NCBI GenBank assembly: GCA_004144175.1
Contig: SEFT01000003.1
Span: 1-64,000, forward strand
Direction of reading: 5' to 3'
Source of the DNA: Sphingobacteriales bacterium
GTDB lineage: Bacteria > Bacteroidota > Bacteroidia > Chitinophagales > Chitinophagaceae
Length of the DNA: 64,000 nt
The translations under genes were made by a program, and so were the position numbers. The stretch's first letter is position 1. The number at the start of each line of letters is the position of its first letter. Below are positions 5,656 through 14,777 of this stretch, piece after piece. The notes under the pieces were generated by a model. It saw only the letters and a program-made list of their open reading frames with translations. It searched no databases and was not told the origin of the DNA.

Positions 5656-6108
5656 ATGAGAGGCGTTAATAGAGTCATGCTGATTGGAAATTTAGGACGC
5701 GACCCGGATCTGCAACACTTAGAAGGAAACATAGCAGTAGCAAAGTTCCCGCTGGCAACTACAGAAACTTTCAAGGACAAAAACGGCAACCTGGTATCGC
5801 AAACAGAATGGCACACAGTAGTATTATGGCGCGGCCTTGCTGAACTGGCTCAAAAATACCTCCATAAAGGCAGCCTTGTTTTTATAGAAGGCAGGCTACG
5901 CACCCGCAACTGGGAAGACAAAGACAAAAACAGACGCTTTAGCACCGAAATAGTTGGCGACAACCTGGTGATGCTTGATAAACGTAAAGATAACGGTGTG
6001 GACTATCAGGCATCAGCTGATGGTCAGCAGGATATGTCTAACTTTTCGTCAGATATAAGCTTCGATAGCGGCGCTGTGAGTGGCACCAAAGATGACCTGC
6101 CATTCTAA
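5656..6108 (+). CDS. ssb: Single-stranded DNA-binding protein
   Basis: 150 residues. The N-terminal OB fold (about 1-110) has the typical MLIGNLGRDPDLQ, TEWHTVVLWRGLAELAQKYLHKG and IEGRLRTRNWEDKDKNRR elements. A flexible acidic linker follows, ending in DDLPF, the tip that recruits partner proteins. It coats single-stranded DNA during replication, repair and recombination. It lies 45 nt after mutY and has its own terminator at 6132-6164. The intergenic region before it is very AT-rich, as is usual for Bacteroidota promoters and translation starts. Confidence 0.96.
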   Translation: MRGVNRVMLIGNLGRDPDLQHLEGNIAVAKFPLATTETFKDKNGNLVSQTEWHTVVLWRGLAELAQKYLHKGSLVFIEGRLRTRNWEDKDKNRRFSTEIVGDNLVMLDKRKDNGVDYQASADGQQDMSNFSSDISFDSGAVSGTKDDLPF

Positions 6109-6131
6109 CCGGGCATAAAATTTCTTGTAAT

Positions 6132-6168
6132 AAGGGAAAGAGTTCAGTAAATGTTCTTTCCCTTTTTT
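6132..6168 (+). terminator. Intrinsic terminator after ssb
   Basis: A 10-bp stem (6132-6141 with 6155-6164) and a 13-nt loop are followed by T's to 6168. It lies between ssb and gldE and argues for the gldE start at 6233 rather than the TTG at 6173, immediately after the hairpin. Confidence 0.75.
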
Positions 6169-6232
6169 ATTTTTGAATGGTAACCAAACAAACGAACACT
6201 TGGCCAGCATACCCGACGGAGAAACGAACTTG

Positions 6233-7558
6233 ATGTTTTTGCTACAGGCAACATCGGGCGGAGTATTCTCTATATCCAATGTTACCGTCCTTATTATCAT
6301 CATACTTACGCTCCTCCTGCTAACGGCCATAACGGCAGGAGCAGAAACTGCATACTTTTCGCTCAATGCAAAAGATGTGAACTACCTGAAGACCAAAGAC
6401 AATACCAGTGCCCGCCAGGCCACTACCCTGCTAGAACAACCAAAACTATTGTTAGCGACAATACTGGTAGCTAACAACTTCATAAACATTGCGATTGTTA
6501 TTACCACCAGTATGCTGCTAAGAGGCTTCCTTATAGGGATGAGTCCTGTGGCCGCCTTTCTGGTACAGATAGTTGCTGTTACGTTTTTGTTGGTTCTGTT
6601 TGGTGAGGTATTACCCAAGGTATATGCTACCCAGAACAATATGCGTATGGCATTATTTGCAGCACCTGTTATTAATGTAATGCAGGGCCTGTTCAAGCCC
6701 ATAAGCAGCATGTTGGTATCATCCAGCACGTTCATTGAAGAAAAGCTGGGTAGCAAGCCTGGTGCGGCGAACTTGAGCAATGAGGATTTTGAACATGCTA
6801 TTGAACTTACTGTGGGGCATACAGCTACGCGTGAGGAGGTAAATATCTTCAAAGGCATTCTCAAATTCAGCAACATTACCGTTCGCCAGATCATGCGGAC
6901 CAGACTGGATGTAAGCGGCATACCATTCGATTACAATTTTAACCAGGTACAGCAGCTAACAATAGATGCGGGCTACTCACGTATGCCGGTGTATCGCGAA
7001 AACCTGGATAAAGTTGCCGGTATGATCTATACAAAAGACTTCCTTCCCTATTCAGAAATTGACAATTTTGACTGGCACACGCTCATACGCCCGGCATATT
7101 TTGTACACGAGGGCAAATTCATCGAAGATCTTTTAAAAGAGTTCCAACACAAACGCATACACTTTGCAGTAGTGGTAGATGAGTTTGGAGGTACGTCCGG
7201 CATTGTTACGCTGGAAGATATCATGGAAGAGATCATCGGCGATATCAAAGATGAATTTGACGAAGAAGATCTTCACTTCAAAAAGATAGACGACCAGAAC
7301 TACATATTTGAAGGCAAGACGCTGATAAATGATGTATGCCGCATGATAGGCGAACAGTCGGATACATTTGAAGAAGTACGTGGCGAGAGTGATTCATTGG
7401 CCGGACTGATCCTTGAAATATCAGGCAAGTTCCCCGCGGTGAACGAAACCGTGAGCTACAAACACTACGACTTTACAGTGCTGAACATCGACAAGATGCG
7501 CATACAGCGGGTGAAGCTAACTATCAATGAACCTGAGAGCGAGAACGCCAAGCCTTAA
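6233..7558 (+). CDS. gldE: GldE-type CNNM/CBS-domain membrane protein
   Basis: 441 residues from the ATG at 6233. The N-terminal part is a CNNM (DUF21) transmembrane domain with about three to four helices and the conserved LLLTAITAGAETAYFSLN and FGEVLPKVYATQN elements. Next comes a CBS pair (VRQIMRTRLDV, YSRMPVYRENLDKVAGMIYTKD, HFAVVVDEFGGTSGIVTLEDIMEEIIGDI) and a C-terminal CorC_HlyC domain. In Bacteroidota, the homologue next to ssb is named GldE and is linked to gliding motility and the GldD/GldG machinery; general family members act in Mg or Co transport. The assignment rests on family plus the mutY-ssb context. No gldD follows: the next gene is a threonine aldolase. Confidence 0.8.
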   Translation: MFLLQATSGGVFSISNVTVLIIIILTLLLLTAITAGAETAYFSLNAKDVNYLKTKDNTSARQATTLLEQPKLLLATILVANNFINIAIVITTSMLLRGFLIGMSPVAAFLVQIVAVTFLLVLFGEVLPKVYATQNNMRMALFAAPVINVMQGLFKPISSMLVSSSTFIEEKLGSKPGAANLSNEDFEHAIELTVGHTATREEVNIFKGILKFSNITVRQIMRTRLDVSGIPFDYNFNQVQQLTIDAGYSRMPVYRENLDKVAGMIYTKDFLPYSEIDNFDWHTLIRPAYFVHEGKFIEDLLKEFQHKRIHFAVVVDEFGGTSGIVTLEDIMEEIIGDIKDEFDEEDLHFKKIDDQNYIFEGKTLINDVCRMIGEQSDTFEEVRGESDSLAGLILEISGKFPAVNETVSYKHYDFTVLNIDKMRIQRVKLTINEPESENAKP

Positions 7559-10004: not shown

Positions 10005-10973
10005 CTAAAAGAAAGACATGGCAGTAATACCACATATCGCTTTTACCAGCATCAGGCCATCTATAATGATCAGGTAGTAAAGTATCGACCGCCTCCGGTG
10101 CAAAGAATATGCTACCATGAGCAAGGCAAGAAAAGGCAGGGTATTCAGCGCGATCTTCATGCTACTAAACCCATGGGTAAAGCCATAAGTAAGGAACGTG
10201 CCCAGGCCAAGGATGCAAAGTGGTATGATGATATAAAAGATCGTCTTCCGCAATCCTACTTCTACTACAAATGTCTTTAGCTGATGATTATAGTCCGTAC
10301 CGTAGTCCTTTATATCGAACAGAATACAGAGCACACTTATAAACATAAAGTTCTTGACAAAGAGCAATACCGTAATCAGCCTGACCTCATACGCCAGTCC
10401 ATATTCGATACAGGATATGATAATAGGATACACCGTAACAAGGCCAGCCCATGTAAACCCTATAACAAATGGCTTCAGCCAACCTATCTTCCGGAGATTG
10501 TACCTACCCGACGAACCGTAGTACATAGCTGCTACAACCGGGAAGACTGCCAGCATAACATAATATAAAAATGGCGCTGCGCGTAACCCGCCTAAATGTC
10601 GCAGAACAAACAAGAAGGCACTAACAATAAATGCTCCTGTCAATACAAACTGGCTATACCTGACGAATTGCTTGTGTTCCGCGTACCACATGCTTCGCTT
10701 ATTAGCGATGTTGGTATTGCCCTCGCCAATATAGGCTAATGTATAGTAAAGAACCGTAGCAAAAAATATCAGCACATAAAAAAGCGGCCTGTTCAGCGGG
10801 TACTGCTGTTGCATACTGGCTTCAACAGACAACCCGATGGCACAAATACCGTAAAAGTAGTTGCCAAAAAAGATCGCCTCAACCAGCCTTGTAAACCATG
10901 ACTTTTGCACGCACGCCGTTTGCTGCGAAATTAGCGATGGAACAGGTTCAGAAAAACTCAGGTTTTCTTCCAC
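10005..10973 (-). CDS. Nine-helix membrane protein, UbiA-prenyltransferase-like, last gene of the MNIO cluster
   Basis: 322 residues with about nine hydrophobic helices, as in the UbiA superfamily. The loop after helix six reads ILFDIKDYGTDYNHQ, matching the second Asp-rich motif of UbiA proteins. The first Asp motif, expected after helix two, is not recognisable there (GEGNTNIANKRSMWY has no aspartate). It may therefore be a catalytically altered or inactive relative, or bind a different lipid. Its start overlaps the end of the MNIO gene by 16 nt, so the two are translationally coupled. In this setting it could modify, anchor or transport the lipopeptide encoded upstream, but that is inference. 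Confident as a membrane protein; the UbiA link is moderate. Confidence 0.6.
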   Translation of the reverse strand: MEENLSFSEPVPSLISQQTACVQKSWFTRLVEAIFFGNYFYGICAIGLSVEASMQQQYPLNRPLFYVLIFFATVLYYTLAYIGEGNTNIANKRSMWYAEHKQFVRYSQFVLTGAFIVSAFLFVLRHLGGLRAAPFLYYVMLAVFPVVAAMYYGSSGRYNLRKIGWLKPFVIGFTWAGLVTVYPIIISCIEYGLAYEVRLITVLLFVKNFMFISVLCILFDIKDYGTDYNHQLKTFVVEVGLRKTIFYIIIPLCILGLGTFLTYGFTHGFSSMKIALNTLPFLALLMVAYSLHRRRSILYYLIIIDGLMLVKAICGITAMSFF

Positions 10974-12085
10974 TTCTGCGCTATGCTTATGGCCGTCTCC
11001 AGCATCGCAGGCTTCCAGCGTTCAATATCCCATTCTGTCTTTGCAAGGGATGATTGTTGCAGCTTGCCCAATGCATCGCTATACGAAGATGCATTTTCGA
11101 GAATATCAGAAAGCTCCAGTTGCTGACGATATAGGTTTGCGTCCCCATTTACAGGAAACTCCGGCAGTGGCAAAACAGGAAGGAAATTATTAACCGATGC
11201 GGATATTGCTGAATGATTTTTCGCTTTTACTACAGTATCCATCCTCACAAAGTCTGCATAGAACTGCTGCCTGCTTTCCGTTGTCTTCAGCGCATTGCCC
11301 AGTTGCTCCATCACTACAAACTTCAGGTGCGGGCATTTATCAATTGTCCTTTTCAATAAATAGAATACCTCTTCCGGCACCGCATCATCATGCGTATCGC
11401 GACGTACCTGCCGCCCCGGCTCTATTTCAGAACCTTCCCAACTACCGCCTGAGATGTGTATCTCCCTCACCCTATCCAGCGGATATAGATCTATCAGTTC
11501 ATCAAAAGGAATAGAGAAATTATGTAGCTGGCAATAGAGATTATGCAGGTCCAGTATGATAAAGCCATTTATTGGGCGGAGCAATTCTTCGAGAAATGCT
11601 CCGTGTCGTTTCACTTCATCCAGCGTATAGGAGAACGCCAGGTTTTCCAGCCCCACAGGACATTCGCAGGCGTCGTATATTTTTTTCAGCCTGCTTTGGC
11701 CAATCTGTAAGTTAGTATTGGTGTAAGGTATATTCAGCGGCGCGCCGCTGTGGAAGTCGCGCCCGGTCATAAATCCGAAATGTTCCGTAATATGATCGAA
11801 CCGGAATGTACGCGACAGCATTTTCAGATGGTCTAGCCATGCCTGCTGTCCAACCGACCAGCCGCCTGAAAAAAGCGAAAAAAATACGCCATGCCCAACG
11901 AGCCTGCCCTCATTACTAAATGCGTGTAGCAGTTCATCGAACCACGGCGGTATTTGCCTATGATCGTAGAGCGCATCAAAAGACCATTCAATAGCCTCCA
12001 CCCGCTCTTCCTGCAATAGCGGAAGCGCAGCCGACAACATATCGTTGTCGAGATTACAGGCTATGGATGAAAAGATTTCGTGCAT
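10958..12085 (-). CDS. DUF692-family multinuclear non-heme iron oxygenase (MNIO)
   Basis: 375 residues. A TIM-barrel enzyme related to MbnB, TglH and ChrH, which oxidise cysteine or neighbouring residues of ribosomal peptides. Candidate iron ligands are all in place: His65 (VGHGVFF), His98/Glu101 (DHITEHFGF), Glu147 (GLENLAF), Asp179-His181-Asn182 (ILDLHNLY), His210 (REIHISGG), Asp230-His232 (RRDTHDD) and Glu260 (VMEQ). The catalytic core ends near residue 283. A further 90 residues follow that ordinary DUF692 proteins (about 280-300 residues) lack; these may replace the separate recognition partner (MbnC/TglI type). The gene starts 4 nt after the stop of a small peptide gene ending in CPACGMG, its likely substrate, and overlaps the next membrane-protein gene. 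Confidence 0.88.
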   Translation of the reverse strand: MHEIFSSIACNLDNDMLSAALPLLQEERVEAIEWSFDALYDHRQIPPWFDELLHAFSNEGRLVGHGVFFSLFSGGWSVGQQAWLDHLKMLSRTFRFDHITEHFGFMTGRDFHSGAPLNIPYTNTNLQIGQSRLKKIYDACECPVGLENLAFSYTLDEVKRHGAFLEELLRPINGFIILDLHNLYCQLHNFSIPFDELIDLYPLDRVREIHISGGSWEGSEIEPGRQVRRDTHDDAVPEEVFYLLKRTIDKCPHLKFVVMEQLGNALKTTESRQQFYADFVRMDTVVKAKNHSAISASVNNFLPVLPLPEFPVNGDANLYRQQLELSDILENASSYSDALGKLQQSSLAKTEWDIERWKPAMLETAISIAQKWKKT

Positions 12086-12089
12086 TGGT

Positions 12090-12278
12090 TTATCCCATTC
12101 CGCAAGCGGGACAATTGGCGGGATCAGGATTATTGATAGTTTCCTTATTGTCCGTTTTTGCTTTCTTTTCTTTTACAGGGAGTATCTTGTACTTATCCTC
12201 ATTCTTGCTGCATGATGTAAGTGTCTGAACAGTAATACCTGCCACAATAGCGCCCAATAGCATTTTAGATAGTTTCAT
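12090..12278 (-). CDS. Precursor-like lipopeptide with C-terminal CPACGMG, candidate MNIO substrate
   Basis: 62 residues from the ATG at 12278; the frame is open upstream but the lipoprotein signal peptide begins at this methionine. Residues 1-22 form a signal peptide with basic start and lipobox LTSC, so Cys23 is probably lipidated. The mature 40 residues are highly charged (KYKILPVKEKKAK) and end in NPDPANCPACGMG with Cys56 and Cys59. There is no globular domain. Only 4 nt separate its stop from the MNIO start. Known MNIO substrates are small peptides with cysteines at or near the C-terminus, which fits well. The predicted product is a lipid-anchored modified peptide facing the periplasm or cell surface. 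No leader-cleavage protease is recognised. Confidence 0.75.
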   Translation of the reverse strand: MKLSKMLLGAIVAGITVQTLTSCSKNEDKYKILPVKEKKAKTDNKETINNPDPANCPACGMG

Positions 12279-12348: not shown

Positions 12349-14463
12349 TTATTGCGATACTCCTTCCAGCATCAGAAGAAAGGCATAGTCACGCGCGGTT
12401 TCCGTTATCTTGTGGAAGCGGCCGCTGGCGCCGCCATGCCCTGCCTCCATATCGGTATAGAGTAGCAGCTTATTATTATCGGTCTTCAACTCGCGCATGC
12501 GAGCCACCCATTTCGCCGGTTCAAAGTATTGTACCTGGCTATCGTGCAGTCCTGTTGTTACCAGCATATTAGGGTAGCTCTTTTTTGCTACGTTATCGTA
12601 GGGCGAATAGCTCTTCATATAGTCGTAACTCTCCTTTGCTTTTGGGTTACCCCATTCGTCGAATTCGCCTGTCGTGAGAGGTATGCTTTCATCCAGCATT
12701 GTAGTAACTACATCTACAAAGGGCACACCTGCCAATACCCCCTTCCAAAGGTCTGGGCGCATATTTACTACTGCACCCATCAACAGACCGCCCGCGCTTC
12801 TGCCTTCCGCATACAGGTGCTCTTTAGATGTGTATTTGTTTGCTAACAGATATTCTGCTGCATCTATAAAATCGGTAAAGCTGTTCACCTTATGGAACAT
12901 CTTACCCTGCTCATACCATTCGCGGCCCATTTCCTCGCCGCCACGTATATGCGCTATCGCGTAGGCAAATCCACGGTCGATAAGGCTAAGCCTCGCACTG
13001 CTGAAAGAGGGGTCAATGCTTGCGCCGTAGCTACCATAGCCATACAACAGCAGCGGCCGGCTGCTATCTTTCTTAAAGTCTTTCCTGTATAGTATCGTTA
13101 TAGGTATCGATGTCCCATCTTTAGCAGTGGCCCAAAGGCGCTCGGTAATGTATTTGGTCTTATCATACCCGCCCATTATCGGCTGTTCTTTCAGCAGGGT
13201 TTTAGCCTGCGTATTCATGTTATAATCATATACAGACGACGGTGTGGTGAGCGAAGTATATCCGTAGCGTAGTATGTCTGTGTTATACTCAGGATTGTAA
13301 CCGACATAAGCCGTATAGGCGGGCTCCCCGAAGTCAAGATAATGCTCCGGGCATTGTTTATTCCAGGGAAGAATACGAATATGAAGGTTAGCGTTCTTAC
13401 GCTCCTGTACCACCAGGTATTCACTAAATATTTCCATCCGCTCGAACAATACATCGGCACGATGCGGAATAACTTCCGTCCATGCATCTTTATTCGTAGC
13501 ACGCAGGGGCGTCTTCATCAGCCTGAAATTCTTGGCCTGCCAGTTGGTATTGATATACCAGTCATCATTATAGTCTTCCACCGAATAGATATGGTCGGCC
13601 TCGCGAGGGAGAAATACTTTAAATTCGGCACCTGGTGTATTTGCGCTGAGGTATCTCGTTTCGCTACTGAGCGTACTGTAAGCTGTAATGTAAATGAACC
13701 GTTCACTTTTCGACTTGCCTACCGACAGATTGAATGTCTCATCCTTTTCATAATACATCAGGATAGGTGTCCTGCGGCTACCTACACGGTATCTGTTCAC
13801 CTTATCGGTGCGTAATGTCACAACATCTTTCGTAGTGAAGAAAACCGTTTTGTTATCATTGGCCCATATAATGTTGCCTCCTGTATTGGGTATGGCGTCC
13901 GCCAACACTTCCCCGATCTCCAGGTCTTTAAAGTAGATAGTAAACTTATTGCGCCCAACCGTATCAGCGCTATAGGCCAGCGTTTTGTTATCCGGACTAA
14001 TGCTAAGGCTTGCTACGCGATAATACGCATACCCGGCCGCCATTTCATTTACGTTCAGCAATACCTCATCAGGCGCATCCATCGTTCCCTTCTTGCGCAC
14101 ATGGATAGGATATTCCTGCCCGGCCTTGTACCGGGTGATATACCAGTAGCCATTTTTAAAGTAAGGGACCGACTCGTCTGTCTGCTGTATGCGGCTCAGT
14201 ATCTCATCATAGAGTTGTTCGCGCAGGCTGGCCACCGGCCGCATGGCTTCTTCGTAGTACTTATTTTCTTCAGTAAGGTAATCCAGTACCTGACCGCTAT
14301 CCGGCCCTTTCAGCCAATAGTCATTTAACCAGTAGTAGGGGTCATGTCGTTTGTCCCCATGTATCTCCAGTATCTTTTCCTTTTTAGGACAAACAGGTGG
14401 TTGTTGTGCCATAAGCTGACTGCATGCAAAGGTAATGAGCATTAAAGCCGGCAGAAATCTCAT
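12349..14463 (-). CDS. Prolyl oligopeptidase family (oligopeptidase B-like) serine peptidase, exported
   Basis: 704 residues, the usual length of S9A peptidases. A signal peptide (about 1-19) suggests a periplasmic or secreted form. The N-terminal part is the seven-bladed propeller with family-typical DPYYWLNDYW and ENKYYEEAM. The C-terminal alpha/beta-hydrolase domain has the catalytic serine in GRSAGGLLMG (about Ser555), the aspartate in GLHDSQVQYFEPAKW (about Asp642) and the histidine in EAGHGGASGR (about His675). The sequence is closer to protease II (basic-residue specificity) than to prolyl endopeptidase, but specificity is not certain. It lies upstream of the MNIO cluster on the same strand, 70 nt before the lipopeptide ATG, with no clear terminator between. 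A joint transcript is possible. Confidence 0.9.
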   Translation of the reverse strand: MRFLPALMLITFACSQLMAQQPPVCPKKEKILEIHGDKRHDPYYWLNDYWLKGPDSGQVLDYLTEENKYYEEAMRPVASLREQLYDEILSRIQQTDESVPYFKNGYWYITRYKAGQEYPIHVRKKGTMDAPDEVLLNVNEMAAGYAYYRVASLSISPDNKTLAYSADTVGRNKFTIYFKDLEIGEVLADAIPNTGGNIIWANDNKTVFFTTKDVVTLRTDKVNRYRVGSRRTPILMYYEKDETFNLSVGKSKSERFIYITAYSTLSSETRYLSANTPGAEFKVFLPREADHIYSVEDYNDDWYINTNWQAKNFRLMKTPLRATNKDAWTEVIPHRADVLFERMEIFSEYLVVQERKNANLHIRILPWNKQCPEHYLDFGEPAYTAYVGYNPEYNTDILRYGYTSLTTPSSVYDYNMNTQAKTLLKEQPIMGGYDKTKYITERLWATAKDGTSIPITILYRKDFKKDSSRPLLLYGYGSYGASIDPSFSSARLSLIDRGFAYAIAHIRGGEEMGREWYEQGKMFHKVNSFTDFIDAAEYLLANKYTSKEHLYAEGRSAGGLLMGAVVNMRPDLWKGVLAGVPFVDVVTTMLDESIPLTTGEFDEWGNPKAKESYDYMKSYSPYDNVAKKSYPNMLVTTGLHDSQVQYFEPAKWVARMRELKTDNNKLLLYTDMEAGHGGASGRFHKITETARDYAFLLMLEGVSQ

Positions 14464-14543: not shown

Positions 14544-14777
14544 TTAGAGCGGTACATTCGGCCGGCCACTGCCAGGCGTTGCGGGGGCAGGTGTGATGGT
14601 GCCTTTCTGAGGATTGAGATATAAGTCGTCGCTATCGTCACAATTATTCTCACGTACCGTATCATTTCCCTCATACACGGTAACATCCCAGCAACCTTCT
14701 TTATAATGTGCTACCTTCTTGCGGTTGTTGGAGCAGGCAGCAAGCAATATGGCGCAGGCTATCAAAACATACTTCAT
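14544..14777 (-). CDS. Small lipoprotein of unknown function
   Basis: 77 residues with lipobox LAAC (Cys15). The mature part contains two more cysteines (EGCWDVTVY and NNCDDSDD), an acidic patch and a proline- and threonine-rich tail (ITPAPATPGSG). It starts 1 nt after the stop of the upstream exported protein gene (ends 14779), so the two are translationally coupled. No family is recognised. The CWDVTVYEGNDTV stretch looks like one beta hairpin. It lies about 80 nt upstream of the prolyl oligopeptidase gene on the same strand. Confidence 0.65.
   Translation of the reverse strand: MKYVLIACAILLAACSNNRKKVAHYKEGCWDVTVYEGNDTVRENNCDDSDDLYLNPQKGTITPAPATPGSGRPNVPL

Follow-up and report, generated by a model that had tools for sequence, protein, structure and literature searches.

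A 64,000-nucleotide (nt) stretch of DNA from a Sphingobacteriales bacterium of the family Chitinophagaceae (GenBank assembly GCA_004144175.1, contig SEFT01000003.1, positions 1 to 64,000; hereafter the window) carries on its minus strand three adjacent genes, which encode a short peptide, an MNIO (DUF692) enzyme and a membrane protein. A preliminary description made from the sequence alone had proposed that these genes form an undescribed cluster, in which the peptide is lipidated and modified by the enzyme and a UbiA-like membrane protein acts as partner. The three-gene arrangement itself is real; coordinates, translations and the match of the enzyme to PF05114 agree with it. The locus is almost certainly a two-gene cluster for a chryseobasin-related, diacylglycerol-bearing, ribosomally synthesized and post-translationally modified peptide (DAG-RiPP) of the DybA/DybH type, and the gene pair adds a new example to a system that has already been described. 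The features considered are as follows.

12090..12278, minus strand: precursor peptide gene, DybA/ChrA-related DAG-RiPP precursor, 62 amino acids, ATG start (translation; NF050125)
12213..12278, minus strand: signal peptide, residues 1–22 (MKLSKMLLGAIVAGITVQTLTS), with a proposed second role as leader (conservation comparisons)
12210..12212, minus strand: codon of lipobox Cys23, the predicted diacylglycerol site (sequence; cysteine in relatives)
12090..12113, minus strand: core motif CPACGMG (residues 56–62) and stop codon, the predicted MNIO modification site (translation; pattern match; core counts)
10958..12085, minus strand: MNIO (DUF692) enzyme of ChrH/DybH type, 375 amino acids (PF05114; NF050165 below cut-off; AlphaFold model)
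10970..11140, minus strand: C-terminal helices of the enzyme (residues 316–372) beyond the TIM barrel (secondary structure of the model; published defining feature)
10005..10973, minus strand: UbiA-like membrane protein, 322 amino acids, probably an incidental neighbour, start uncertain (GTG at 10973 or GTG at 10910; weak PF01040 match; fold matches)
12349..14463, minus strand: prolyl oligopeptidase with an apparent signal sequence, cluster membership doubtful (PF02897, PF00326)

The enzyme gene starts four bases past the stop codon of the peptide gene. When the membrane protein gene is taken as the longest open reading frame (ORF), starting with GTG at 10973, it overlaps the enzyme gene by 16 nt, as had been reported. 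The overlap is real for this ORF but is not established for the gene, because tblastn alignments from 29 homologous loci start only at residues 11 to 34 of the protein (mostly 25–30) and an in-frame GTG at codon 22 (10910) provides an alternative start, which would leave a 47-nt gap after the enzyme gene. Scans for promoters and terminators gave no excess over shuffled sequences (9 found against a mean of 12.2, and 5 against 5.1), and a search of Rfam gave no match.

The peptide begins with a short basic segment followed by a hydrophobic stretch; then come Cys23 within a lipobox-like LTSC (residues 20–23; assigned by pattern only), a polar linker and a CPACGMG end. It matches the NCBIfam model NF050125, 'chryseobasin-related MNIO class RiPP peptide', with 77.9 bits (cut-off 40, E = 6.9e-22), and scores 18.4 bits against NF050124 (chryseobasin proper), below the cut-off of 50. 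The pattern CxxCGxG followed by TRR occurs five times in the genome of the window, and a reversed-pattern control occurs twice. The other four matches were considered as further substrates in trans and rejected, as two end in TGG and the other two fall within longer reading frames in a different phase; the peptide is therefore the only convincing CxxCGxG gene end in its genome.

Relatives were collected by scanning genome contigs with the enzyme; 109 were found and the best 80 of the 109 were kept for locus counts. They come from Chitinophaga, Taibaiella, Hymenobacter, Pontibacter, Dyadobacter, Fluviicola, Saprospiraceae and others, and L077 comes from Dyadobacter crusticola DSM 16708, which is also the strain studied in PMC12636315. 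A short ORF ending in CxxCGxG is located upstream of the enzyme in 79 of the 80 loci, with two or three precursor copies in ten of them. The distance from the precursor stop to a conserved enzyme codon, obtained for 75 of the 79, ranges from 17 to 650 nt. The C-terminal cysteines are conserved: CPACGMG ends 55 of the 79 precursors, CPGCGMG 15 and CPACGLG five, with four other variants found once each. All of the 21 precursors that were scanned, out of 80, match NF050125 at E 0.001. A script located a cysteine at residues 16–33 preceded by G, A or S in 77 of 79 precursors, and the two remaining rows, which had been mis-trimmed, also carry such a cysteine in their full sequences. By homology, as judged from the NF050125 match, the recurrent gene pair and the published relatives, the peptide is probably the substrate of the enzyme, its two C-terminal cysteines the probable site of modification and Cys23 the probable site of lipidation, and in these respects the preliminary description appears to have been right. 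Two outcomes that would have counted against it, a lack of conserved C-terminal cysteines in homologous peptides and DUF692 genes elsewhere with no such peptide beside them, did not materialize.

The pair is not accompanied by a conserved third gene. Clustering of 820 ORFs of at least 100 amino acids from the 80 loci placed the enzyme family in 79 loci (in L040 the greedy selection of ORFs had passed it over), and the next families occurred in ten (an ECF sigma factor by eye) and nine loci (SusC-like by eye). Where the downstream neighbour could be seen (75 loci), it lies on the same strand in 34, within 100 nt in 20 of these. Pfam searches with nine flanking proteins from eight relative loci revealed nothing in common except a phosphorylase in two Dyadobacter loci.

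The enzyme matches PF05114 with 100.5 bits (E = 1.2e-28). Together with the NF050125 score of the peptide and the 79 recurrent pairs, this puts the observation well beyond chance. Its AlphaFold model (pLDDT 88, pTM 0.90) shows strands and helices in a barrel-like succession, after which come helices 316–331, 335–343 and 359–372, and the top PDB matches of the model are MbnB and TglH. Residues H65, H102, E147, D179, H181, H210, H232 and E260 are invariant across 33 enzyme sequences, and the stretches around D179/H181, H210, H232 and E260 align with TglH in an alignment that covers the second half only. We take the invariant residues to be the iron ligands, as in MbnB and TglH. The C-terminal helices, read from the secondary structure of the model rather than from a superposition on ChrH, are taken as the extra helical domain that marks the ChrH/DybH subfamily in PMC12636315. 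The enzyme is 59% identical to that of D. crusticola and 66% identical to a Chitinophaga enzyme, and 42% identical to two enzymes whose precursors have no lipobox. In a tree of 34 rows, built without Chryseobacterium ChrH, it falls within a group of 32 that is split at 100/100 from those two, and it groups with the Chitinophaga, Hymenobacter and Dyadobacter enzymes. The distribution of the enzyme is patchy, with matches in 8 of 147 family genomes (E 1e-20) and in 7 of 395 class genomes (ChrH model, E 1e-30); the single same-genus genome gave no enzyme match.

Several observations weigh against the assignment to the DybA/DybH type. The best NCBIfam match of the enzyme is MNIO_ChrH (NF050165), at 372.1 bits against a cut-off of 600, so that no curated equivalog model covers it. 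The group of 32 is poorly resolved, 17 of its 31 inner branches being open, and does not place the exact neighbour of the window enzyme. At lipobox position −3 the relatives carry T, V, A, S or I more commonly than L. Finally, one of the 80 loci (L029, enzyme at 6001–7122) encodes a ChrH-type enzyme with no recognizable CxxCGxG precursor upstream; it may be an orphan enzyme, or its precursor may be located elsewhere.

Departures from the single-precursor arrangement were also seen. Loci L192 and L193 (about 180–1400 in each) carry four tandem precursors without a lipobox adjoining a ChrH-type enzyme, and these precursors differ in their ends (CPPCGMG, CPGCGMG, CEACGRG and CGKCGKG); one enzyme possibly has several substrates. 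Three Taibaiella loci (L030:5137–5933, L018:5306–5958 and L071:4712–5980) hold two or three precursors each, with ends that include CPPCGRG and CITCGRG; one of the L030 copies lacks the lipobox that its siblings have. The ChrH-type enzyme of locus L198 (410–1282) is encoded close to the end of its contig; an in-frame TGA lies within the stretch that matched, no precursor was found in the DNA available, and the gene is perhaps a decayed or cut copy.

The core of the system was described in November 2025 in a preprint (PMC12636315), so the peptide and enzyme, which had been thought to belong to no described system, are already covered by that paper, and the peptide by NF050125 as well. In the preprint, DybA/DybH from Dyadobacter was studied together with homologues from Chitinophaga and Hymenobacter. 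The loss of four hydrogens turns CPACGMG into a macrocycle and a hydantoin with a free thiol, and the reaction requires no partner protein. Lipidation of the Dyadobacter precursor takes place at its lipobox cysteine, and DybA/DybH gives a −4 Da lipidated product. As in this system, the window has a ChrH-type MNIO with a C-terminal helical domain, immediately preceded by a lipobox precursor with a CPACGMG end, and precursor and MNIO form a minimal cluster with no conserved partner gene (no other ORF family in more than 10 of 80 loci). It differs in genus, in enzyme sequence and in its flanks, a UbiA-like gene lying downstream and a prolyl oligopeptidase gene upstream. A literature search on CPACGMG, chryseobasin, DybA and DAG-RiPP gave, among the matches listed, only PMC12636315 and PMC10214503 as relevant; PMC12452194, which names chryseobasins, was absent from them.

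By analogy with the published relatives, the MNIO would act in the cytosol, where its iron site would bind the C-terminal CPACGMG and use O2 for a four-electron oxidation. The two cysteine positions would be joined to form a small macrocycle and the following backbone would become a hydantoin, so that one thiol would stay free (−4 Da, without methylation); no partner would be required. The Sec and lipoprotein pathway (Lgt, LspA, Lnt) would then lipidate Cys23 and remove the signal peptide, and the end state would be a membrane-anchored peptide with a ring at its end. The cluster is one more member of a recently recognized family of lipidated ring peptides.

Other products are conceivable. The enzyme might S-methylate its substrate as ChrH does (+10 Da) and so yield chryseobasin proper, the system of ChrA, ChrH and ChrI (PMC10214503), with which the window shares the CPACGMG core and the MNIO subfamily and whose family model is the best NCBIfam match of the enzyme. 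This is highly improbable, as the enzyme scores below the ChrH cut-off (372 against 600) and groups, in the tree without Chryseobacterium ChrH, with genera whose tested enzymes (Chitinophaga, Hymenobacter and Dyadobacter) gave −4 Da (PMC12636315). Chryseobasin differs further in that ChrA is exported via signal peptidase I, and its operon contains ChrI (DUF1772), ChrE and ChrP (PMC10214503); a scan of eight window proteins gave no match to these families. It is also unlikely that the product is a lipopeptide of the bufferin or oxazolin kind (PMC12452194; NedA in PMC12636315) that binds copper or iron. The same enzyme superfamily acts on these peptides, which are exported, some of them with signal peptidase II signals, and lipidated members are reported in PMC12636315. 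However, their substrate motifs are different, they come with a partner protein (BufC, HvfC) and their chemistry is linked to copper; the published CPACGMG product is described in PMC12636315 as having no absorbance feature of the methanobactin/bufferin aromatic groups. The window peptide has no EGKCG motif or repeats, no Pfam match of any kind and no bufferin family match in either Pfam or NCBIfam, and no metal-handling family was found by Pfam among the eight window proteins scanned.

The remaining alternative concerns the membrane protein. Its AlphaFold model (pLDDT 80) has nine long helices, in agreement with the nine that had been predicted, and Pfam (E up to 1) gives a single match, a weak one to UbiA (PF01040, 14.7 bits, cut-off 34.2). 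No ChrI-type DUF1772 protein was found beside the enzyme. A PDB sequence search gave no match. Foldseek placed UbiA-type structures in five of the nine best rows (7bpu, 6m31, 4tq4, 8djk and 4od5; query TM 0.43–0.56), none with E < 0.001. UbiA prenyltransferases carry two Asp-rich motifs. The second, FDIKDYxxDxN (FDIKDYGTD in the window), is kept in all 11 aligned homologues, and the first is absent by eye in 11 of 11, with AY-x-x-[ED]...N-x-R in its place, which makes ordinary prenyl transfer by this protein doubtful. This UbiA-like family, with a conserved FDIKDYxxD and without the first motif, is widespread: 102 of 147 family genomes have a match, weak ones near 24% identity included.

Its same-strand position directly downstream with an overlapping ORF, its possible UbiA-type fold with the conserved second motif and the precedent of a membrane partner in the ChrH paper (PMC10214503) might suggest that the UbiA-like protein functions as a third part of the system, either as a membrane partner of the kind first proposed for ChrI (DUF1772) or as an enzyme attaching an isoprenoid to the thiol left free. 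We consider this very unlikely. By tblastn (E up to 1e-3) the protein was found in none of the 80 related MNIO loci (flanks up to 6 kb, some shorter), and no enzyme was found beside its homologues in 29 loci (flanks up to 1.5 kb). The enzyme occurs in far fewer family genomes (8 of 147) than the UbiA-like protein, and the two adjoin in one of these eight, the window's own. Six of the other seven have a UbiA-like match, none adjoining the enzyme: the two lie about 20 kb apart in G071, 3.3 Mb apart in G085 (where the UbiA-like protein is 58% identical) and on different contigs in the other four. Moreover, DybH works alone and ChrI was later found to be dispensable (PMC12636315), and no report of an MNIO together with UbiA was found in a literature search; neither of two MNIO papers searched for the word UbiA has it in its main text. 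As adjacency to the enzyme is confined, among the eight enzyme-bearing family genomes, to the window's own, the UbiA-like gene is best read as a chance neighbour and not as part of the cluster, although it is possibly co-transcribed with the enzyme in this strain; the proposed partnership is not borne out, and the cluster serves as a warning against taking its downstream membrane gene for a partner.

Within the two-gene cluster of DybA/DybH type, the signal peptide is conserved beyond what a lipoprotein control shows. Over 80 precursors (the 79 and that of the window) the mean pairwise identity is 0.515 in the signal against 0.246 in the linker. Among 400 randomly sampled precursor pairs, binned by the identity of the adjacent enzymes (eight of which have over-long frames that lower identity slightly), signal identity is 0.470 at enzyme identity 0.45–0.55 (82 pairs), 0.477 at 0.55–0.62 (238) and 0.588 at 0.62–0.70 (60). 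The unrelated lipoprotein BamD (45 of 57 loci parsed, 990 pairs; an earlier parse covered 25 of 30 loci), binned by mature identity, gave 0.299 (182 pairs), 0.311 (100) and 0.357 (17), in a comparison whose pairs are non-independent, whose control is one family, whose borders are set by pattern and whose yardstick of divergence is two different proteins. BamD was chosen because a within-locus lipoprotein control comprised too few pairs, 14 in all (five at mature identity 0.70–0.85, signal 0.37; nine above 0.85, signal 0.84). Aligned from the N-terminus, seven of 17 positions (K2, S4, K5, L7, L8, A10 and G14) reach at least 75%, against none of 17 in BamD. Aligned from the cysteine, none of 17 positions reaches 75% in either family, and three positions in the precursors against two in BamD reach at least 50%, since the distance to the cysteine varies (signal lengths 21–26). 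The conserved positions thus fall in the N-terminal half of the signal, away from the lipobox. At the codon level there is synonymous variation, with four codons used for A10 and for G14 and six for L8 (K5 is AAA in most cases), which indicates that the constraint acts on the protein. Nine lipobox-less precursors (four each in L192 and L193, one copy in L030), whose N-terminus by eye resembles a signal peptidase I site at its end, all have L, I or V at position 3; S4 and A10 are retained in eight, and K2 and L8 in seven, but not K5 (0/9), L7 (1/9) or G14 (0/9). The shared part is therefore MK[LI]SxxxLxA, though common descent alone could explain part of this sharing.

In PMC12636315, recognition of the C-terminal motif is considered likely to relax selection on the N-terminus. 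Judged from the sequences, such relaxation seems to fit the large cyanobacterial proteins published there and not the Bacteroidota peptides analysed here, and the residue-by-residue conservation of the signal is the single result of this study that goes beyond published C-terminal-only recognition. One tentative explanation, which we put forward as possible rather than probable, is that the cleavable signal peptide doubles as a sequence-specific leader. Through MK[LI]SxxxLxA the precursor may be retained by a dedicated binder, in the simplest case the C-terminal helices of the MNIO near the membrane, and ring formation may in this way be completed before export. The published in-cell test with green fluorescent protein (GFP) would be blind to such a role, because, as we read PMC12636315, the GFP construct is not exported. 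It is a serious possibility, somewhat stronger in our judgement, that the conservation has no special meaning and reflects a recent spread of precursors between clades or slow divergence of short genes. The patchy occurrence of the enzyme makes transfer likely, and the failure of any cysteine-aligned position to reach 75% is in keeping with this explanation; against it stand the binning of pairs by adjacent-enzyme identity, the variation among synonymous codons and the linker from signal to core, whose identity is down to about 0.25. If the leader role is confirmed, the published view of a C-terminal-only motif and relaxed N-terminal selection would have to be amended, and the order of modification and export would become testable. 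Enterococcal pheromones are cut from lipoprotein signals. In a bolder variant drawn from this analogy, the released signal peptide may itself be a product.

Upstream of the peptide gene, a prolyl oligopeptidase gene (PF02897 and PF00326 matches) ends 70 nt away. A prolyl oligopeptidase is suggested as maturation protease for a Spirosoma endophyticum cluster in PMC12636315. In the window this role was left as doubtful, as tblastn found a homologue in none of the 80 related loci; the best match in the single same-genus genome is only 27% identical, and we judge the gene to be a neighbour and not a cluster part. Further upstream, a 77-amino-acid ORF at 14544–14777, which gave no significant Pfam match, has a lipobox-like start (LLAAC).

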